Origin: Candidatus Hydrogenedentes bacterium ADurb.Bin170
GTDB lineage: Bacteria > Hydrogenedentota > Hydrogenedentia > Hydrogenedentales > CAITNO01
Direction of reading: 5' to 3'
DNA length: 64,000 bases
Assembly (NCBI GenBank): GCA_002070275.1
Contig: MWCY01000003.1
Location: forward strand, 1 to 64,000
Below, piece by piece: positions 12,090 to 24,898 of the stretch (position 1 is its first letter; the number at the start of each line of letters is the position of its first letter). The translations under genes were made by a program, and so were the position numbers. The notes beneath the pieces were generated by a model that saw only the letters and a program-made list of their open reading frames with translations, had not been told where the DNA came from and did no database searches.

Positions 12090-15000
12090 TCAGGGGCGCT
12101 GAAAATAACTGTCCAAAAGATCACCCAAAAGCGCTTCCAGGTTAATCCCTTCCCCCTTCAACCTGTGTATTTCTTCAAGGACTGCACTTTTATTTTTATC
12201 TTTGAAGAGCGCCGTAAAAAAAACTCCGAACTGCGCTGTATAAGTGGCATCCCCGGCAAGTGCTTTAAAGGCGCACTTGGCTGCATCACCTTCTCTGCCG
12301 GCTGCAAGATGCAGCAGCGACATCAGCCCGTAGGCGCCTGATACGGGAGTATCCGCTACGGAAAAATAGTGTGTTAATATTTCCTCTGCCTCGGCATATT
12401 TTTTTTGCATGACCAGCAGAAAAGTCAAAGACGTATAGGCTTCCGTCATTGTACTGTCCATGAACAGCGCTTCCTTCAAGGCTTTTTCGGCAGCATCAAG
12501 CTCCCCGCGACTTTGCGCCAGGATTCCACGCCTGTAGGCACGAACGGCAGCGATGTGCTTTTCAGGTGCTTGCCCTGTCTCAAGAGCCTGAATAACTTCG
12601 GCAAGAAAGCGGGCGTAATCAGGGTCAGCATCAGCAGCAGAAATCAAAGCAGTGAGCGCCTCGTCATAAGCCCCTTTTTCTGCAAGGAGAAGCCCCCATT
12701 CCAGAAGCGCCAGTGTATTAGTTGAATCAAGACGGGCAGCGTCGCCGAATAGATCCCCTGCCGCTTCATTATCACCTGCAGCCATCACTTCATAGGCGTT
12801 CCACATTGCACGGATAGAGGCAGCTGCCTGTCTGGAATTTTTTCCATCTGAACACGCCTTATGCAGGCTTCTATATATTTTTTGAGTATCCGGATCTGCC
12901 TGAAACAAGGTGTCCAGTGTTTTTTTGCACAGATCTGGATGGAAGTTTTCTGCCTGCAGCAATGCCAAATGAGCGTATGCCTCAGTGATGCTTTTTCCTG
13001 TTAATGCCGCGTAGCCTTCCATCATTTCCTGCACCCTCTGTCCTTCTTCATACACGCTGCGGATATATGCCAGAAGAAGCTGTGAGAGAGCAAGTGCCGG
13101 ATCAAGAGAAAGCGATTCTTCCAGAAGGTGTTTTGCTCCGGCGGTATCTCCCTGTTCTACTGCAAGCGATGCTTCTCTATAGGATTTTACCGCTTCGTAA
13201 CACTCAAAAATGTGCTTCCCCGAATTGAGTGCCTGCAGGAGATTTTTTGTTATTTCCCGGTAACTTCCTGGCTGTGCCTGTGCTTTTGTTAAAGCCGATG
13301 CAGCTGACTCATAGTCCCGTTGGGGAATTCTTTCCAGTGCCTCCTCCAGGTGAGCCAGCCCGGATGCGGAATCTTTTTGTGCTGCTTTTGAAAAACAGTA
13401 AATCGCATAGGCTGTCTGGCTGTTGTTTCGGGCCCCATAGCCTTTCCAAAGCCAGCGCACCGCTTCAATACGTTTTAAAAAGAACTCATCCCGCTGCAGT
13501 GCCGAAACTACACTGCTGTAGATCTCTTTTGCAAAACTGCTTTCCTGCATCAAAGCCTCAAAAATTGCGCATGCCTCTTCCCTGCTGCCCTGGACTGCCA
13601 ATTCAAGGGCCAGATCACCAACAGATTCAATCTCCCTGTGGGTCAGTGCCTTTTCTCTCTCCTCTCCTCCAAAAGAACGATCCAGAGAAAAACACTCCTC
13701 CAGAGAAAGAGCGTTTTCCGATTTTCTTTCAGCAGCGATCTTATAAATGTAAATATCTCTGATCGCACTTAAGCAAAAGCGTTCGAACGAAAGACCCGCT
13801 TCAGAAAGCCAACTCTCGAAGTCTGCGGGGGGAGAAAAATCAAAGTAATCCCGAGGAATAACAGCCCATACAACGCTCTCCGCTTTTCCTTGCCGCGACA
13901 GGCAAAAAGCAGCCTCGGCGGCAAGAAGTTTCTGATCGGCAACGGCTGCCACCGGCAGGGCTAATACAACCTGAGCCGCCCACCGGGCATTGTGCTGGAG
14001 CACATCACGCCATAAAAACTCCTCCACCAGCACGACATCTTCCCGTTTGCTTTGCTCCTGAAGAAAGAGAGCAGTCTGTCGCCATTGCGTTCGTTGGGGC
14101 CCGGGTAACGTCCACACCCATTGGAGGCCTGTGCCCGCCAGAAGAACCAGCGCGGCAAACGACACCAGGAGTTTATTCCTGCTTATGCCTGCTCCGGCGG
14201 CAACCAGCAGGTAAAGAGGAATCAGGCAATGAACCGTATACCTGGGAAACATGCAGGGGCGCAGAAGCCACGACGCACAGAACAACGCCAGCGGCGGCAG
14301 GATCAGCCATGGCAGAATGCAATAAAGTACGAGCTGCTGTTTTGTTTCTTTTCTTTTTTTCCAGGCAAAGAGAAACGCGGCAATAAGAAAAAAAACAATT
14401 GCGAGGGCAAGCAACCAATCGGAGGCACTGCGGAACAACACGAGTTTTTGTGCATATTCCCCCAGGCGCAGCTGCCAATGAAAGGAAATGATATCATCGA
14501 AAAAGAGATCGGCAATTAATTCAGTAAAGGTAGGTCTGGCAAACCAGGCGGCCGTGGTATTTTGCGGCCAGAACCGCACCTTTGCAAGATAAAAGGCCTG
14601 GGGTATGAAAATTGTTCCCTGAAGAAGAAACCAGATCAAAAGAAGGCGCAATTGCTTATGCCGGGTGAAAAGCATATATGTAACAGGACCAGCCAGCACT
14701 AGAACGGCAAAAGGATGCGTCCAGCATAGAGCAAAAGAAAAAACGCCATGCAGCAAAATCGATGACAGATTCCGGCGCTCCAGAAAACCAAGAAAACTCC
14801 ACATGACACCAAGAGCAAGAAAGACCAGAAGCCCGTACATGCGGATACTCTGCGAATGATGGATATGCACCGGCGACAGGGCAAGCAGCCATACAGAAAG
14901 CAGAGCAACTCTTCTGCTCAGGTACTTATCGGCAAAAGCGTATAACAAAAGCAGCGTTGCCAGTCCAATTGCGATGCTCTCCAAACGCAAAGAAAAAAGG

Positions 15001-15254
15001 GACGGGCTGACCCATTTAGCCCAAAAATATTCCGGAACCAGATAGCCGGGCAATGCCAGAGGATCAAGGGTGCGCACAAGATCATAAAATTCGCTGAACG
15101 AAGAGGCATCAAGATGCGCATGGCTTGCATATTCATCCCACCATATCGATTCATTCTGTATATGCAGGAGGCGCAGCCCGCAACCTGCTGCCAGTGCAAC
15201 CAGAAGCAGGCACAGTACCAGACTGTTTTTTGTAGTAACGACATTCATTTTCAT
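12090..15254 (-). CDS. PMT/ArnT-type glycosyltransferase fused to a long TPR tail
   Basis: The N-terminal half (about residues 10-500) is an integral membrane glycosyltransferase with around ten helices. The first periplasmic loop carries the family's catalytic acidic pair Asp40-Glu41 in WWDE, and HSQSIRMYGL near 130 matches the GT39/GT83-like superfamily that uses lipid-linked sugars. The C-terminal half (about 530-1054) is repeated TPR-like helical hairpins (for example AYTSLTFLLVMQKKYAEAEE). The reported start is the ATG at 15254, which places a signal-anchor helix at 11-30; a GTG at 15317 lacks a ribosome site. It may transfer sugars to proteins or lipids at the outer face while the TPR tail recruits partners. 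Donor and acceptor are unknown. Confidence 0.82.
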   Translation of the reverse strand: MKMNVVTTKNSLVLCLLLVALAAGCGLRLLHIQNESIWWDEYASHAHLDASSFSEFYDLVRTLDPLALPGYLVPEYFWAKWVSPSLFSLRLESIAIGLATLLLLYAFADKYLSRRVALLSVWLLALSPVHIHHSQSIRMYGLLVFLALGVMWSFLGFLERRNLSSILLHGVFSFALCWTHPFAVLVLAGPVTYMLFTRHKQLRLLLIWFLLQGTIFIPQAFYLAKVRFWPQNTTAAWFARPTFTELIADLFFDDIISFHWQLRLGEYAQKLVLFRSASDWLLALAIVFFLIAAFLFAWKKRKETKQQLVLYCILPWLILPPLALFCASWLLRPCMFPRYTVHCLIPLYLLVAAGAGISRNKLLVSFAALVLLAGTGLQWVWTLPGPQRTQWRQTALFLQEQSKREDVVLVEEFLWRDVLQHNARWAAQVVLALPVAAVADQKLLAAEAAFCLSRQGKAESVVWAVIPRDYFDFSPPADFESWLSEAGLSFERFCLSAIRDIYIYKIAAERKSENALSLEECFSLDRSFGGEEREKALTHREIESVGDLALELAVQGSREEACAIFEALMQESSFAKEIYSSVVSALQRDEFFLKRIEAVRWLWKGYGARNNSQTAYAIYCFSKAAQKDSASGLAHLEEALERIPQRDYESAASALTKAQAQPGSYREITKNLLQALNSGKHIFECYEAVKSYREASLAVEQGDTAGAKHLLEESLSLDPALALSQLLLAYIRSVYEEGQRVQEMMEGYAALTGKSITEAYAHLALLQAENFHPDLCKKTLDTLFQADPDTQKIYRSLHKACSDGKNSRQAAASIRAMWNAYEVMAAGDNEAAGDLFGDAARLDSTNTLALLEWGLLLAEKGAYDEALTALISAADADPDYARFLAEVIQALETGQAPEKHIAAVRAYRRGILAQSRGELDAAEKALKEALFMDSTMTEAYTSLTFLLVMQKKYAEAEEILTHYFSVADTPVSGAYGLMSLLHLAAGREGDAAKCAFKALAGDATYTAQFGVFFTALFKDKNKSAVLEEIHRLKGEGINLEALLGDLLDSYFQRP

Positions 15255-18383: not shown

Positions 18384-19910
18384 TTAAAACGCCACCCTTG
18401 CCCCTGCATACACATTTGTATTGTCTTCGAATTGCCCGAAGAACGTGTGGCGCTGGCGACCCATAAAGATGTTGCCTCCGAAATCAACTGTCCAGTTGTC
18501 ATTGATTTTGTAACTGACATTGGGGCGCAGATAGCTGTCGCTGTCTGAAGGGCTTGCGTAAGCAAACAAGGAGAGAATCAGGTTCTGCTGAAGAAGTTGT
18601 TTGGTCAGGCGCAGCGTGATCAGATGTCTGTCCCGATCTCTTGCTTTCATGAAAAAAGGAAGCGTTTTTTTATAGGCTTTATACTGCTGCATGTATTCAA
18701 GATAGTACTGGATTCCGGCAGTAAATTCATGGCCGATCTCACGTTCATAGCCAGCTAAAAAACGGATCTCACTGTTGTTTATAAAGGGGCTGGAGCCGGA
18801 ACGGTCCTGATAGGAGTCATAATAGCCAAATTCCAGGTTGGCAATCCCTTTCCCGAGGGCGCCTCTGATGCTGGCACCATAGACCCTCAATTTCGGAAAA
18901 ATGGCTCTGGACGGGAAGAGCTGCATGCCGCCCGGGCTTTTCCAGTAGCCTGAGTAGCCGTATAAAGCAAGCTGTGCACTGCCAAGATTTCTGTACAGGC
19001 GGACAGCGATCTCATCGTTGTCAAACCAGTCATCAGGTTCTATGGTGTGCACCTGTTGTTTTCTGCCTACTGTTTTTCCGTGCATAGGACTGAAATAGCT
19101 GAAACGCTTTCCAGTGATATACCTGTCTGGATTGAAGCGGGGCGTGTAAACCACTTCAACATTCATTATTTCATTGAACCAACCTATACGGGCCGCATTG
19201 GACGGCGCTTTGAGATACTCCACGTCTCTGCCACTGAAATAAGAACGCCAGTCTTTCGGAAACAGGTCATTGATGAAGAGCATGTCGCCTGTTCCCCAGG
19301 TTAACACCTGCCGCCCTATTCTTATGTCAAGCGATTCAACAGGTGTCCAGGTGAGGCGCAGCTGTCGGAGGTCGATGCGTGCCCGTTCTTCAATCGCATC
19401 AAAAAGAGCATCGCCCGTAAATTCAATAAACACCCGATCCCAGTCTTTATCGGTTTTGAGCTGCAGGCGCATTTCGCCGAGTGTCGCGTCTTTAGCCTGT
19501 GCCGGATCTGATGTTATTCTGCTGCCTGCACGAACATCCCAGAATCCATGAAACTGAAGCGGCGATTCCTTGCGTAGAGCTGAGGCGGAGTCGTTTTCTT
19601 CATTAAAAGGTGCAGCTCCCAGCCCTTCCGGCAAAGCAGGCTCCAGTCCCGATGGGAGAGCAGGCTCCTGGGTGCGCTCGCCGACAGAATCCAACCCGGC
19701 AGGCAAGGAAGGTTCCAGTCCCACAGGCAATGCGGGTTCTACGGTTGGTGCGCTGGCAGATTCAAGCCCGGCTGGCAGAGCGGGTTCTGAACTGCTTTTC
19801 CCGACAGGCTCCAGCCCGGCCGGCAAAGCAGGCTCTTCAGCCTGAGCAACCACGCTCACGATCATGAGCACAATCAGAAATGACACCCAAAAGGCATATC
19901 CGGGACGCAT
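18384..19910 (-). CDS. Outer-membrane beta-barrel protein with PALPxGL repeat leader
   Basis: A 508-residue exported protein. The signal peptide ends near residue 24 (VVAQA). A Pro-rich tract at 27-97 holds six PALPxGL units. From about 115 on, the protein alternates hydrophobic and polar residues in many short strands, rich in aromatic residues, and ends in ARVAF with a C-terminal Phe, the BAM recognition end. The pattern resembles DUF1302-like or alginate-export-like barrels. It is the last gene of a minus-strand unit with a lipoprotein-sorting-like protein and an RND permease, so it probably provides the outer-membrane end of an export route. The cargo is unknown; a lipid is my inference. 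Confidence 0.8.
   Translation of the reverse strand: MRPGYAFWVSFLIVLMIVSVVAQAEEPALPAGLEPVGKSSSEPALPAGLESASAPTVEPALPVGLEPSLPAGLDSVGERTQEPALPSGLEPALPEGLGAAPFNEENDSASALRKESPLQFHGFWDVRAGSRITSDPAQAKDATLGEMRLQLKTDKDWDRVFIEFTGDALFDAIEERARIDLRQLRLTWTPVESLDIRIGRQVLTWGTGDMLFINDLFPKDWRSYFSGRDVEYLKAPSNAARIGWFNEIMNVEVVYTPRFNPDRYITGKRFSYFSPMHGKTVGRKQQVHTIEPDDWFDNDEIAVRLYRNLGSAQLALYGYSGYWKSPGGMQLFPSRAIFPKLRVYGASIRGALGKGIANLEFGYYDSYQDRSGSSPFINNSEIRFLAGYEREIGHEFTAGIQYYLEYMQQYKAYKKTLPFFMKARDRDRHLITLRLTKQLLQQNLILSLFAYASPSDSDSYLRPNVSYKINDNWTVDFGGNIFMGRQRHTFFGQFEDNTNVYAGARVAF
19619..19832 (-). repeat. Six PALPxGL peptide repeats in the barrel protein
   Basis: The units begin at residues 27, 43, 59, 67, 83 and 91. 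Spacings alternate between about 16 and 8 residues, suggesting growth by internal duplication. The fourth unit reads PSLPAGL. The repeats lie between signal peptide and barrel, so they would be a periplasmic extension. Confidence 0.9.
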
Positions 19911-19962
19911 GCAGACCCCTTTCTAGACAGTTCAGGCGGTAACGGAAAAGTCGCTGTTTTTA

Positions 19963-20760
19963 TCAGTTCAGATATTGTCGTGGTGCACGGCGCATAAACC
20001 GTTCTGTGTAGATATTTTCCGGGATTCCCACGTTGTAATCCACCTTCAGGTATTCTATCGTGGTTTCACTTCCTGAATTCAGATCCTTCATTACATTTTT
20101 CGTGACTGTCGGAAAGCCGTCGATTGTATCCACTTTTTGCGCCTCGCCAACACGATAAATGTTACCGCCTTTTTCATATTCTACTTTAACAGGGATAAAA
20201 GTTGTCTTGTGAATATAAACCTTATAAGAATCGAATTCAACCGAACCCGGATTCTTAGGTACATTTTTGATCACATAGAAATTGTCGGTAGTTTCTACCA
20301 GTTCGTGCACGTCTTCTTCAATACTGCGTCCGGAGACATCTTCATAAAAGAAAGTGGAGCCGACAAAACTGGTTCTTTTGTCTGTGGCAGCAATCTGACG
20401 GACAGCATCCAGAGCAGGGAGATAGAGCCAGCGGTCATCATCTTTTCCCACATGTTTCCAGACCATAAAAACCATTTCGCGCACATCGGCCGGGCTGTTG
20501 AAATAGACATAAAACTGCTGTTCTTCATCTTTATCATCAGCGTTGCGGCGCAGGATAAAAAACTCTCTTTCCCGCACATTGCCCTGCTTATCCTTAATGC
20601 TCATTTTCACTTTTGCCCTGCCATCGCTCCCCTGATAATAAGCAGCATGGTTGGCTTTTTTAATGATTTCATCCACTGACGGGGCATCCTGTGCCAGTGC
20701 ACTACAGGTCAAAGTAATCAGACAAGTAGCCAGCAGCATCATTTTTGCGTGTTTAATCAT
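19963..20760 (-). CDS. Periplasmic outer-membrane lipoprotein-sorting-like protein
   Basis: A 265-residue protein with a clear signal peptide (cleavage near residue 24, SALAQ). The mature part has the LolA/LppX-like curved sheet signature of the sorting family often named after TP_0789: YQGSDGRAKVKMSIKDKQG, then LRRNADDKDEEQQFYVYF, then WLYLPALDAVRQIAATDKRTSFVGSTFFYED. Members have a hydrophobic pocket and ferry lipids or lipoproteins through the periplasm. It lies between the RND permease gene (36 bases upstream) and the barrel gene (52 bases downstream), which fits a periplasmic shuttle between an inner-membrane pump and an outer-membrane barrel. Confidence 0.87.
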   Translation of the reverse strand: MIKHAKMMLLATCLITLTCSALAQDAPSVDEIIKKANHAAYYQGSDGRAKVKMSIKDKQGNVREREFFILRRNADDKDEEQQFYVYFNSPADVREMVFMVWKHVGKDDDRWLYLPALDAVRQIAATDKRTSFVGSTFFYEDVSGRSIEEDVHELVETTDNFYVIKNVPKNPGSVEFDSYKVYIHKTTFIPVKVEYEKGGNIYRVGEAQKVDTIDGFPTVTKNVMKDLNSGSETTIEYLKVDYNVGIPENIYTERFMRRAPRQYLN

Positions 20761-20796
20761 GATTCATTCTCCTTTTTTCTGCAAGGTACGCAACGC

Positions 20797-23712
20797 TTAT
20801 TTTTCATCTGAAACAGTTTTACAGGATTCACGGCGGGACATAAAGAAACAAACTGTCCCGGAAGCCAGGACAACAACCAGACTCACAAGTGACAAACCTG
20901 TCCAGGTCATATCAAGGAACTGCTGCACATTTAGCGCTACAGTTGCTGTTGCAATGACAGCGGTCACCACACAGGTTCCGCAGCGGCAGGTAATCCGGCA
21001 GATTTTATCCTGCGGGAAAAGCAGTTTCTCCAAAACTTTAATCAAAGCCGGAAGAAAGAACAAGGTGGATAATCCAGCACACGCAAGAATGCCTGCCATA
21101 AAAAAACCGACTGTATTGTAAGGTACCAGCGGAGCAGCCAGTAGCGGGGTAAAGCCGATAGCAACTGCAATCACATTTCTGGTAATTGCCCGGACAGGTT
21201 CTCCGTATACAAGCGGATAGGCACCCTCCCAGTTTCCTTTCAAGTCGTGGTACTCACGGCTTCTTGAAAGGAAATGAATTGCAAAGTCAACGGCAAGCCC
21301 AAGTGTAAGGGAGGACAGTACAGCAACAGGCATATCATAGTCCTTGCCCATAAGACCGACCACACCGTAAATAAGTGCGATGGTGACTGTCAGCGGGATC
21401 ATGGAAATAAGTCCCCACAGCCCTGAACGAAACAGGACAGTCATCATGAGCAGGACAATGAGAAAACTTCCCAAGAAGGCATTGAGCATGCCTATCACCA
21501 TTTTCTCCTGCCAGACCACGTTGATGTATGTCAGCCCGAACCAATGGTGCTTTAAACCGAAAGGCGGCGGGTTCTCGGCGATGAAAGCGTCCATGACTTC
21601 TGTCACATATTTCATATCCTGATTATTGCCACTCTTCAGCTGCACCCATAGACTCGTTTCTCTGAAGTCATGAGAAACAAAATGACCCAGATCCTGAGGG
21701 CGATGACTGCTTTCAAAGGTAATAAGGCACTGGGCAACAGCACGCGCCGTTTCGGGAATAGTAAAATAGTCAGCGTTTCCTTCCATCAGTTCTCTATAAA
21801 CCGTTTTAACAATATCAGTAAGAGAGTTCGATTTTCCGACAACGTTGGTTTCAAGCAGCTTATTCTGGAGTTTTTCTAAGTAAGCAAGCGCTTCCGGCTG
21901 CTTGAATATTTCATTGCGCTGCTCTTCCATATCGAGGAAAAGGAGCAGGTCTTCCCAGGCTTCAACAAGAGATTCAGCCACACTGTCTTCGGGATCCGCA
22001 GTCATCAGTGCTTCCGACGCCGCATTCAGCCTGTCATCGGCTTCCTTATGCAGCATCTGACGCAACTCCTGAATCGTTTGCGTTTCTGCTCCCTTTTCGT
22101 GAAGAAGAGAGGCAATAGCAAGCAAGGCATTTTTCGGCTCCTCGTCGAGATTCATTTCGTCAACTGTCCGACGCAGCCGTGCCTCCAAATCCACTGCATA
22201 TTCGCCCAGTTCAGGACCGGTGCTTTCAGGCTGCAAAGCGAGATATGCCATATATGTGCCGCCAAAATGTTCATTTAAAACCCTGTCGGCAACACGAATA
22301 GGGTGGCTGTGCTTAAACCAGCGGGTAGGATTGTCGTTTACCTGTATTTTACTGATACCATAGGCAGCCACTACGCCCAGCAGAACAGCACCGACAAGAA
22401 CGATGCGCGCATGTCTGAAAGTAAAAACACCTGCACCTGCCAGAAGGCGGCCCAACCTGGTAGAAGTGTCAGGACCTGAGTCATCTTCTTCACTGATCAT
22501 GCTGCCGAATCGTGCGAGCGTGCGTTCCGGCAGAAGCATGATGTAAGCGGGTATGAAAGTCATGGTAAAGAACCAGGCAATCATAATCCCGATTGCAACG
22601 TAAATGCCGAAAATTTGCACGGGTGGAATGGGTGTAATGGCGAGAGAGGCAAAGCCGGCAGCAGAGGTAAGGGATGTATAGAGCATGGCGGAAAATAAAG
22701 TATCCATTACATGCTCAATGGCTTTGCGCCGGTCTTTAAATTTCTGGTATCTGTCGAAGAAAAAGCTGAGAATGTGTATGGAGTCAAGTATGGAAATGGG
22801 CATGATAAAAATGGGAATCATGGAACTCATGATATGGATTGTATTGCCCGTAACAATGAGCAAACCCATGTTGACTACAACGACATACACAGCGAGAAGC
22901 ATGGGTGCCAGAATGAGCACAAATTTTCTGAAAAAATACAACATCAACAGAAAAATGACGAGCATTGCCAGCGGCGCGGAAATCGCCATCTGTATAAACA
23001 TTTCCACACCAAAAGTATCATTGGCAACAGGCAAGCCTGTGATGTGCCATTGTTCAGCTCCCGGAAATTCGGCGATTTTTTTCTGCAGTTTGGAATAAAT
23101 CCGGTAACTCAGATCTTTCGAAGTGATCGGCAGATAAATCGCCAGCGCTTTTCCTGATTCGGAAACAAGTGTGCCCTGTAGAAAGGGAATTTTTGCTGCC
23201 CTGTCCCGGACGGCAAGTGCTTCTTCTTCTGTCGCGGGCGGCTCTTTCATGAGCCACTCAAATTTAACTTCGCCCGGACCGCCCTGTTCAATGTTGTCCA
23301 CGGTGGAAGGTGCAATAATATCCATCGGGACAACACCCGCCATTGGATCGTCCAGGCCGATCACTTCTCCGCGCAAGGTCTTTGCATATTCGGTTAATTC
23401 ATAAACCTGCCGCAATGTTTCCGGATTAAAAACCCCTTCCGGGTGACTGTCATTCACTACCCCAACTACGATAATTTCGTTGAGGTCAAAGACCTTTTTC
23501 ATGGAATCATGGTATAAACGTACCGGTTCGGTTCTGCTGAGCATATTCTCCGGATCCGTGTCCACCCGAACGGGAGGCAGGGGAAGTGAACCGGGTAATA
23601 GAGTCGGGATTGCTACAGCGGCTATCAGCAAAAGAGCACTGATAACCATAGATGCAGTAATCGCCCGGGGATGACGTATACCTAAAGCAACAACACGCTG
23701 GCTAAAAGGCAT
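20797..23712 (-). CDS. RND/MMPL-superfamily permease
   Basis: A 971-residue inner-membrane protein. The ATG at 23712 follows a perfect AGGAGG by eight bases; a 103-codon upstream extension of the frame is not coding and was removed. It has the two-fold RND plan: a helix at 16-38, a large periplasmic domain (about 40-260), five to six helices with a sterol-sensing-like block, a second helix and periplasmic domain (about 440-750), then a second block (GLAVDFAIHFLSRSREY near 850). The family exports lipids, hopanoids or siderophores using proton force. With the two following genes it forms a three-part envelope unit. It is divergent from a sulfotransferase gene. Confidence 0.9.
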   Translation of the reverse strand: MPFSQRVVALGIRHPRAITASMVISALLLIAAVAIPTLLPGSLPLPPVRVDTDPENMLSRTEPVRLYHDSMKKVFDLNEIIVVGVVNDSHPEGVFNPETLRQVYELTEYAKTLRGEVIGLDDPMAGVVPMDIIAPSTVDNIEQGGPGEVKFEWLMKEPPATEEEALAVRDRAAKIPFLQGTLVSESGKALAIYLPITSKDLSYRIYSKLQKKIAEFPGAEQWHITGLPVANDTFGVEMFIQMAISAPLAMLVIFLLMLYFFRKFVLILAPMLLAVYVVVVNMGLLIVTGNTIHIMSSMIPIFIMPISILDSIHILSFFFDRYQKFKDRRKAIEHVMDTLFSAMLYTSLTSAAGFASLAITPIPPVQIFGIYVAIGIMIAWFFTMTFIPAYIMLLPERTLARFGSMISEEDDSGPDTSTRLGRLLAGAGVFTFRHARIVLVGAVLLGVVAAYGISKIQVNDNPTRWFKHSHPIRVADRVLNEHFGGTYMAYLALQPESTGPELGEYAVDLEARLRRTVDEMNLDEEPKNALLAIASLLHEKGAETQTIQELRQMLHKEADDRLNAASEALMTADPEDSVAESLVEAWEDLLLFLDMEEQRNEIFKQPEALAYLEKLQNKLLETNVVGKSNSLTDIVKTVYRELMEGNADYFTIPETARAVAQCLITFESSHRPQDLGHFVSHDFRETSLWVQLKSGNNQDMKYVTEVMDAFIAENPPPFGLKHHWFGLTYINVVWQEKMVIGMLNAFLGSFLIVLLMMTVLFRSGLWGLISMIPLTVTIALIYGVVGLMGKDYDMPVAVLSSLTLGLAVDFAIHFLSRSREYHDLKGNWEGAYPLVYGEPVRAITRNVIAVAIGFTPLLAAPLVPYNTVGFFMAGILACAGLSTLFFLPALIKVLEKLLFPQDKICRITCRCGTCVVTAVIATATVALNVQQFLDMTWTGLSLVSLVVVLASGTVCFFMSRRESCKTVSDEK

Positions 23713-23869: not shown

Positions 23870-24898
23870 ATGGAACTTACGCCTAAAATGATTTTTGTTA
23901 TCGGAGCGCCGCGCTCCGGGACGACCATGTTGGAACGCATTATTTCATCGCATTCCGCAGTGCAGGGCGGTCCGGAACCGCACATTATCACTCCTCTTGC
24001 CCATACAGGCGTATGGGACAAAGTCGATAAGGCCCCTTACGACCACATTCTGGCAGCAGAAGCGCAAAAATTCTTTGTGTCACAACTTCCGGAAGGGGAA
24101 AACGATTATTATGCGGCGTGTCGTGCCTATTGCGACGTACTGTACGGGCGTTTTCTCCAAGCCAAGGGCACGAAACTGTACTGTCTCGATAAAACGCCTG
24201 CTTATGCGCTTGTACTCCCCTTTCTTTCCCGAGTCTATCCGGATGCGGCCTATATCGTGCTTACCCGTCATCCGCTGGCAATATTTTCTTCTTTTGCGAA
24301 TTCTTTCTTCGATGGCAGCTATCAGGAAGCCCATGCCTATAACCCTGTACTGGAGCGATATATCCCTGCCATGGCTGCCTTTCTCCGCAATCCGTCCACA
24401 AGGAAATTGCACGTACGCTATGAAGATCTGGTTAAAGCACCTGAAGAATGGTTCGAAAAGATCTGCAATCATATAGGAATTCCTTTTGAGGCAGAAGCCG
24501 TCAATTACGGGGAGCACCGTGACAAACAACAGACGGGAGGTCTTGGTGATCCTATCGGCGTTTCTCAACATTCCCGGCCGACTACAGCCAGCGTCAAGAA
24601 GTGGGCTGCTGAAATTCACGCTGATCCCCTGAAATTAACTCTGGCAAAAAAAATGATTGCTGCTTTGAATCCGGAAGATCTCGCCCTGTGCGGCTACCCG
24701 CTTGAAAATCTGTGGCAGCCTCTTGTCCAAATCGAGGGCACCACACTGCGCAAACCGCCCCGCTCAAAATTAACCCGTTATAGCCTGGAAAGGAAACTAA
24801 TCCTGTTTTTCCGCCGGCGTGCACAAAAAAACAAATTGTTTCGTAAACTCCTGTTGAAAATTCGGTTGATTGCCGATGTTTTTTTAAGAGAAGTTTAG
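23870..24898 (+). CDS. PAPS-dependent sulfotransferase
   Basis: A 342-residue enzyme that moves sulfate from PAPS to a hydroxyl or amine. The 5'-phosphosulfate loop is GAPRSGTT at residues 12-19, and the 3'-phosphate site is YIVLTRHPLAIFSS near 124-137, with RYEDLV near 184. The C-terminal 60 residues are basic and helical, perhaps for membrane contact. GGAG stands about nine bases ahead of the ATG. It lies 4 kb from a sulfate uptake operon and next to glycan-related genes, so a sulfated glycan or lipid product is plausible. No acceptor can be read from the sequence. Confidence 0.9.
   Translation: MELTPKMIFVIGAPRSGTTMLERIISSHSAVQGGPEPHIITPLAHTGVWDKVDKAPYDHILAAEAQKFFVSQLPEGENDYYAACRAYCDVLYGRFLQAKGTKLYCLDKTPAYALVLPFLSRVYPDAAYIVLTRHPLAIFSSFANSFFDGSYQEAHAYNPVLERYIPAMAAFLRNPSTRKLHVRYEDLVKAPEEWFEKICNHIGIPFEAEAVNYGEHRDKQQTGGLGDPIGVSQHSRPTTASVKKWAAEIHADPLKLTLAKKMIAALNPEDLALCGYPLENLWQPLVQIEGTTLRKPPRSKLTRYSLERKLILFFRRRAQKNKLFRKLLLKIRLIADVFLREV

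Follow-up and report, generated by a model that had tools for sequence, protein, structure and literature searches.

Organization of the gene cassette

The window, which is the whole 64,000-nucleotide stretch of DNA that was analyzed, carries three consecutive genes on its minus strand; they encode an RND-type permease (ATG at position 23712, stop at 20797; 971 amino acids), a periplasmic protein with a LolA-type fold to which we refer as the shuttle (20760-19963; 265 amino acids), and an outer-membrane β-barrel (19910-18384; 508 amino acids). The permease and shuttle genes are separated by 36 bases and the shuttle and barrel genes by 52 bases, and all three ATG codons are preceded by purine-rich stretches resembling ribosome sites. 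These ORF coordinates agree with the gene order, common strand and spacing set out in the original prediction for this DNA, and the six-fold PALPxGL tract that it had noted in the barrel was located as six copies between residues 27 and 97. The features of the cassette are:

20797..23712, minus strand: HAE3-like RND/MMPL permease of the inner membrane (Pfam MMPL; TIGR00921 below its cut-off; hydropathy; solved relatives)
19963..20760, minus strand: LolA-fold periplasmic shuttle with signal peptide (PF17131 and DUF1329; AlphaFold; Foldseek; co-variation)
18384..19910, minus strand: outer-membrane β-barrel of 18 strands (AlphaFold; Foldseek; hhalign to DUF1302)
19620..19832, minus strand: disordered N-terminal barrel tail with six PxLPxGL copies, residues 27-97, the proposed docking motif for the shuttle (pLDDT; cross-phylum conservation)

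The genome of the window belongs to Candidatus Hydrogenedentota; its nearest named relative is a Candidatus Hydrogenedens MAG, whose permease is 82% identical. A sulfotransferase gene (23870-24898) is oriented divergently from the cassette; since its neighborhood is kept only in a sister genome (L031/L091), it probably does not belong to the route discussed below. Downstream on the same strand, positions 12090-15245 encode a single protein in which a membrane mannosyltransferase-like domain is followed by TPR repeats; it is found there within the genus only.

Occurrence of the cassette in bacterial genomes

Among the 99 permease loci with enough contig downstream, the shuttle gene directly follows the permease gene in 92, and a barrel gene follows the shuttle gene in 88. 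The cassette is present in at least eight phyla: relatives of the permease occur in Hydrogenedentota, Planctomycetota, Thermodesulfobacteriota, Pseudomonadota (alpha and gamma), Myxococcota, Nitrospirota and Fibrobacterota, and in Fusobacteriota the genes are plasmid-borne in the order shuttle, unnamed protein, permease. Cross-phylum identities amount to about 48-58% for the permease and mostly to 43-52% for the barrel. Six Hydrogenedentota genomes lack the barrel gene in the operon; all six carry it elsewhere, with three to five motif copies. When neighboring genes were clustered across phyla, no other gene or enzyme recurred beside the type-A cassette, and this gave no clue to the substrate. 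Because the gene order is conserved across phyla, stray barrels are found elsewhere in the same genomes and no further neighbor recurs, the three genes are a unit that persists as a whole. A grouping by chance is not supported, as the three families stand together, in the same order, in many phyla.

Aestuariicella hydrocarbonica and Porticoccus are likewise carriers. A cassette close to that of a gammaproteobacterium (L170) was found in a record titled Halobacteria archaeon (L166), which is probably a mis-binned contig. Within 7 kb of some diverged, mostly type-B cassettes (L048, L067, L068, L069 and L079) lies a gene for an AMP-binding enzyme (DIP2/FAAL-like; Pfam-checked in L048), and this may hint at an acyl-lipid cargo at those diverged loci.

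The three components

The permease matches the Pfam MMPL family (PF03176; 4.7e-32), and its top NCBIfam match is TIGR00921 (HAE3; E 1.1e-49) with 169 bits against a cut-off of 352. Its solved relatives are Dispatched, MmpL4 and HpnN. It is neither HpnN as judged by NCBIfam (TIGR03480, 64.5 bits against 752; NF052374, 23.3 against 1100) nor an MmpL protein of the actII type (TIGR00833, 128 bits against 875). The second periplasmic domain contains a large helical insert (about residues 500-600). At its C-terminus the protein is extended (window positions 20797-20993) by a stretch that, judging from hydropathy, adds two hydrophobic segments and that also carries a cysteine cluster (CRITCRCGTC ... 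RRESC). This extension, which may be a metal site, is kept in Hydrogenedentota and is shorter in Planctomycetota; it is not present in the one proteobacterial relative compared. Two permeases of equal length and close relationship, those of L166 (4312-8016; 1235 amino acids) and L170 (7161-10871), were also noted, the former with two cyclic-nucleotide-binding domains at its N-terminus. Six other loci, including that of Emcibacter, have a putative cNMP-type regulator gene upstream on the same strand, and these domains and regulators near the pump are hinting at its control by a ligand.

The shuttle belongs to the LolA_like family PF17131 (2.8e-52; 177.5 bits, with a Pfam gathering score of 30) and has a partial match to DUF1329 over residues 37-143 (9.5e-8; 32.1 bits against a cut-off of 23.1), which recurs at E<=0.01 in 62 of 71 relatives. 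Its AlphaFold model (mean pLDDT 93.9) has as top Foldseek match LolA3 of Porphyromonas gingivalis (PDB 9tp6; TM 0.82/0.90; 28% identity) and also resembles the DUF1329 protein 4z48 and 3bk5; the fit to LolA proper is much poorer (TM about 0.39). Despite this closest fold, the protein falls outside the NCBIfam LolA3 family NF053579 (13.1 bits against a cut-off of 83), and the LolA_3 profile PF19574, which is the wrong family, has no match in the genome of the window. The shuttle is thus closer to DUF1329 and LolA3 than to LolA. PF17131 shuttles also occur at loci with no RND pump in view (L087, 9484-10917; L042, L075, L081 and L084). Neighbors recurring there include an FtsX/MacB-type ABC permease (Pfam-checked in L087), in some cases together with a distant barrel, so that two kinds of pump seem to serve as partners of this shuttle family.

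The barrel is a distant relative of DUF1302: its own match is weak (2.6e-4; 20.6 bits against a Pfam cut-off of 23.2), the family is recognized at E<=0.01 in 36 of 69 relatives, and hhalign aligns the barrel to two DUF1302 barrels with 95% probability. In the AlphaFold model (mean pLDDT 86.7), the chain forms 18 long strands, ends with a phenylalanine and is disordered at about residues 39-85, with pLDDT values below 50 at residues 39-42 and 47-85. A sequence search for solved relatives returned none; the best solved Foldseek matches are the 18-stranded AlgE and porins, with modest TM-scores.

The PxLPxGL motif

The motif tract begins directly after the signal peptide of the barrel. Its six PxLPxGL copies (residues 27-33, 43-49, 59-65, 67-73, 83-89 and 91-97) differ in synonymous codons. 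When the whole genome was scanned for the motif as a DNA pattern, 49 matches emerged, six of them in the barrel tail, as compared with 41 for the reversed pattern, and no second motif cluster was detected. The motif is present in 45 of 85 related barrels, ahead of the barrel domain, in one (Emcibacter) to six copies. Its density is 18 per 1000 amino acids in barrel tails against 0.07 per 1000 in the other ORFs of the same loci, none of which contains three copies. The core remains constant and the spacers vary in length and composition, also among genomes of differing base composition; judged from these sequences, the tract would be a linear binding motif by its appearance rather than a simple tandem repeat. 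Because about half of the cassettes do without it, the motif is not essential to the route.

Ten permeases from Hydrogenedentota, Planctomycetota and Nitrospirota carry one to four copies of the same motif, although the permease of the window has none. This tract sits in the insert of the second periplasmic domain, flanked by the conserved sequences YMAYL and FKxPEVLRY, and either replaces the helical insert (Hydrogenedentota and one Nitrospirota) or adds to it (two Planctomycetota). In all seven cassettes with a permease tract and a barrel in view, the barrel is motif-bearing; in L066 and L070, the permease has the tract and a motif-bearing barrel lies elsewhere in the genome. Matches to LPxG[LMI] in type-B permeases (YEMSLPxGxxLN) were interpreted as an ordered segment within the porter domain and were not counted as a tract.

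Co-variation of the motif with shuttle residue 184

If the shuttle binds the motif, the shuttles of cassettes without it are expected to differ at the binding site. In a first set of loci, residue 184 was histidine in 41 of 43 shuttles from motif-bearing cassettes and in none of 39 from motif-less ones, where it is mostly aspartate; it also follows all three isolated losses of the motif. This rule was then used as a prediction and tested on newly fetched genomes, whose loci were taken with 1.5 kb flanks and yielded 100 further cassettes in which the shuttle could be read. The raw counts were 28 with motif and His184, three with the motif and another residue, none with His184 and no motif, and 69 with neither. 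Two of the exceptions, L213 and L214, proved to be false motif matches at the barrel junction; with these corrected, His184 is present in 28 of 29 motif-bearing and in 0 of 71 motif-less new cassettes. The pooled and cleaned data give 65 of 68 and 0 of 107, respectively, the motif-bearing cassettes without His184 being L056, L060 and L292. In six further genomes with unlinked barrels, the shuttle has the histidine and the barrel the motif, as predicted.

For tree-based contrasts, the tree was built from shuttle and barrel with the region of residue 184 removed. Among the 640 columns of shuttle and barrel, column 184 takes first rank, three contrasts speaking for it and none against it, and ranks two to five (columns 160, 201, 191 and 181) are all shuttle residues within 160-201, a region that forms successive strands and strand ends in the AlphaFold model. 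Since the trees contain four independent changes of the motif, a sign test is unable to reach significance; the phylogenetically independent contrasts number three to four. Permease columns that track the motif were dropped, as most of them mark a single clade and do not follow the three isolated losses.

A proposed route and its alternatives

RND proteins are energized by the proton gradient, and HAE3 and MmpL proteins transport outward. For most phyla it has yet to be explained how hydrophobic molecules pass through the periplasm on their way to the outer membrane. The data reported here lend themselves to a trans-envelope route for a hydrophobic molecule, probably lipid-like, in which the shuttle docks via the PxLPxGL tail in the region around His184, and we consider this reading reasonably probable. 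The RND permease, driven in analogy to other RND proteins by the proton motive force, would extract the molecule from the inner membrane, the LolA-fold shuttle would ferry it through the periplasm, and the 18-stranded barrel would take it at the outer membrane; export appears likelier than uptake. The disordered tail would serve as a tether whose multiple docking sites, bound by the shuttle around His184, hold the shuttle near its acceptor; direct binding of the motif by the shuttle is suggested by the co-variation of their sequences. Where the pump of a lineage bears a tract as well, the same shuttle site would also serve loading, so that one peptide would mark both donor and acceptor. That a single site at His184 reads docking arrays of variable copy number on both pump and barrel is a more tentative proposal, to which we would give not quite an even chance; to our knowledge, no periplasmic lipid carrier has been described that docks at the two membranes through a shared motif.

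The same route could operate with a tail that is just a flexible spacer, or a site for some other partner, His184 and the motif being linked by common ancestry and not by contact. That the motif changed independently so few times on the tree, and that many cassettes have no motif, speaks for this explanation, yet it leaves unaccounted for a motif core that is kept amid variable spacers and across base compositions, a permease tract that is seen only alongside a barrel tract, and the first rank of column 184 among 640 columns together with the success of the rule in new genomes. We regard it as rather unlikely. Less probable still, in our opinion, is a role in uptake or hydrocarbon handling, in which the barrel would admit hydrophobic compounds from outside and the shuttle and permease would move or expel them. 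Most carriers (Phycisphaerae, Desulfobulbia, Hydrogenedentota and Nitrospirota) are not known as hydrocarbon degraders, and degradation genes do not recur next to the cassette. Experimental findings on similar gene sets nevertheless speak for this idea: deletion of ameABCD reduces monoterpene tolerance (PMC6394551), TOL_3187/3188 are induced on a C28 alkane (PMC6304351) and PP_0765/0766 are required on Tween 20 (PMC10866462). Among the carriers of the cassette, moreover, are Aestuariicella hydrocarbonica and Porticoccus.

The original prediction had also considered a lipoprotein route. A Lol-type sorting pathway in which an RND pump substitutes for LolCDE would suit the annotation of the shuttle as a lipoprotein-sorting protein and its LolA-type fold, but the shuttle is nearer to DUF1329 and LolA3, P. 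gingivalis LolA3 barely binds LolB (PMC13103446), and Flavobacterium johnsoniae does not need its LolA3 counterpart for gliding or secretion (PMC11885536). This makes lipoprotein sorting highly improbable. The cassette is widespread and compact; if the docking route via the PxLPxGL tail is true, the PF17131/DUF1329 shuttles, now annotated as lipoprotein-sorting proteins, gain a mechanism and a sequence-based means of partner recognition.

Comparison with known systems

The original prediction held that no such three-part route had been named. This holds in part: AmeABCD and a set of Pseudomonas putida follow the same overall plan, which has received little study, and the cassette described here is a diverged variant without a YCF48 gene. 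No experimentally studied close member was found. The AmeABCD system of Castellaniella defragrans, which serves the efflux of apolar monoterpenes, consists of a DUF1302 outer-membrane protein, a DUF1329 protein of the LolA superfamily, a YCF48-like (COG4447) protein and an HAE3 pump (PMC6394551). The cassette resembles it in combining, in one gene set, an RND permease closest to HAE3, a LolA-superfamily periplasmic protein and an outer-membrane barrel with weak DUF1302 similarity, and profile comparisons support distant homology of its barrel and shuttle to their counterparts in DUF1302/DUF1329 sets. It differs in the absence of the YCF48 protein (AmeC), in a shuttle of family PF17131 with partial DUF1329 similarity, in barrels mostly below the DUF1302 cut-off, in its gene order permease-shuttle-barrel and in the PxLPxGL tail. 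Neither a fourth gene for a YCF48/COG4447 protein in the window cassette nor such a recurring neighbor across the related loci was detected.

A set of the same kind, PP_0765/PP_0766/PP_2018/PP_2019, has been modeled in P. putida; the DUF1302 barrel is predicted to bind the DUF1329 protein, for which contacts with a periplasmic protein and an RND-type pump are predicted in turn, and the set is, unlike the cassette, split over two loci (PMC10866462). The passages considered make no mention of a PxLPxGL motif (PMC10866462). A DUF1302/DUF1329-type set is also expressed in a benzene-degrading consortium (PMC13101534), and annotated plasmid clusters have the orders YCF48-MMPL-DUF1302-DUF1329 (Aromatoleum) and DUF1302-MMPL-LolA_like (Haliovirga). 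In Thalassolituus oleivorans, TOL_3187/TOL_3188, which by their description combine MMPL and LolA-like domains beside a predicted porin and so look like a further set of this plan, differ from the cassette in that the MMPL and LolA parts are fused in one protein; the induction cited above is the sole information on them (PMC6304351).

The cassette does not fit a Lol system, given that the best family of its shuttle is PF17131/DUF1329 and its partner is an RND pump rather than LolCDE. P. gingivalis LolA3, which has a hydrophobic groove and interacts weakly with LolB (PMC13103446), shares its fold (9tp6) with the shuttle, which nevertheless scores below the NCBIfam LolA3 cut-off. Nor is the cassette of the AcrAB-TolC type (HAE1), as a LolA-type fold and an 18-stranded barrel take the place of a membrane fusion protein and a TolC-type channel. 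HpnN and BstABC resemble the proposed route in that an RND pump supplies lipid to the outer membrane, and Bst has been proposed as a set spanning inner membrane, periplasm and outer membrane (PMC10942540). The periplasmic parts of Bst are, however, PhnD-like and TRAP T-component-like and not of the LolA and barrel kind, and HpnN has no known partners of the shuttle or barrel type. The literature searched contained no description of the PxLPxGL motif or of its co-variation with a shuttle. Compared with these systems, what is new in the cassette is a tail motif shared across phyla, the presence of the same motif on a periplasmic loop of some permeases, and its tracking by His184 of the shuttle.
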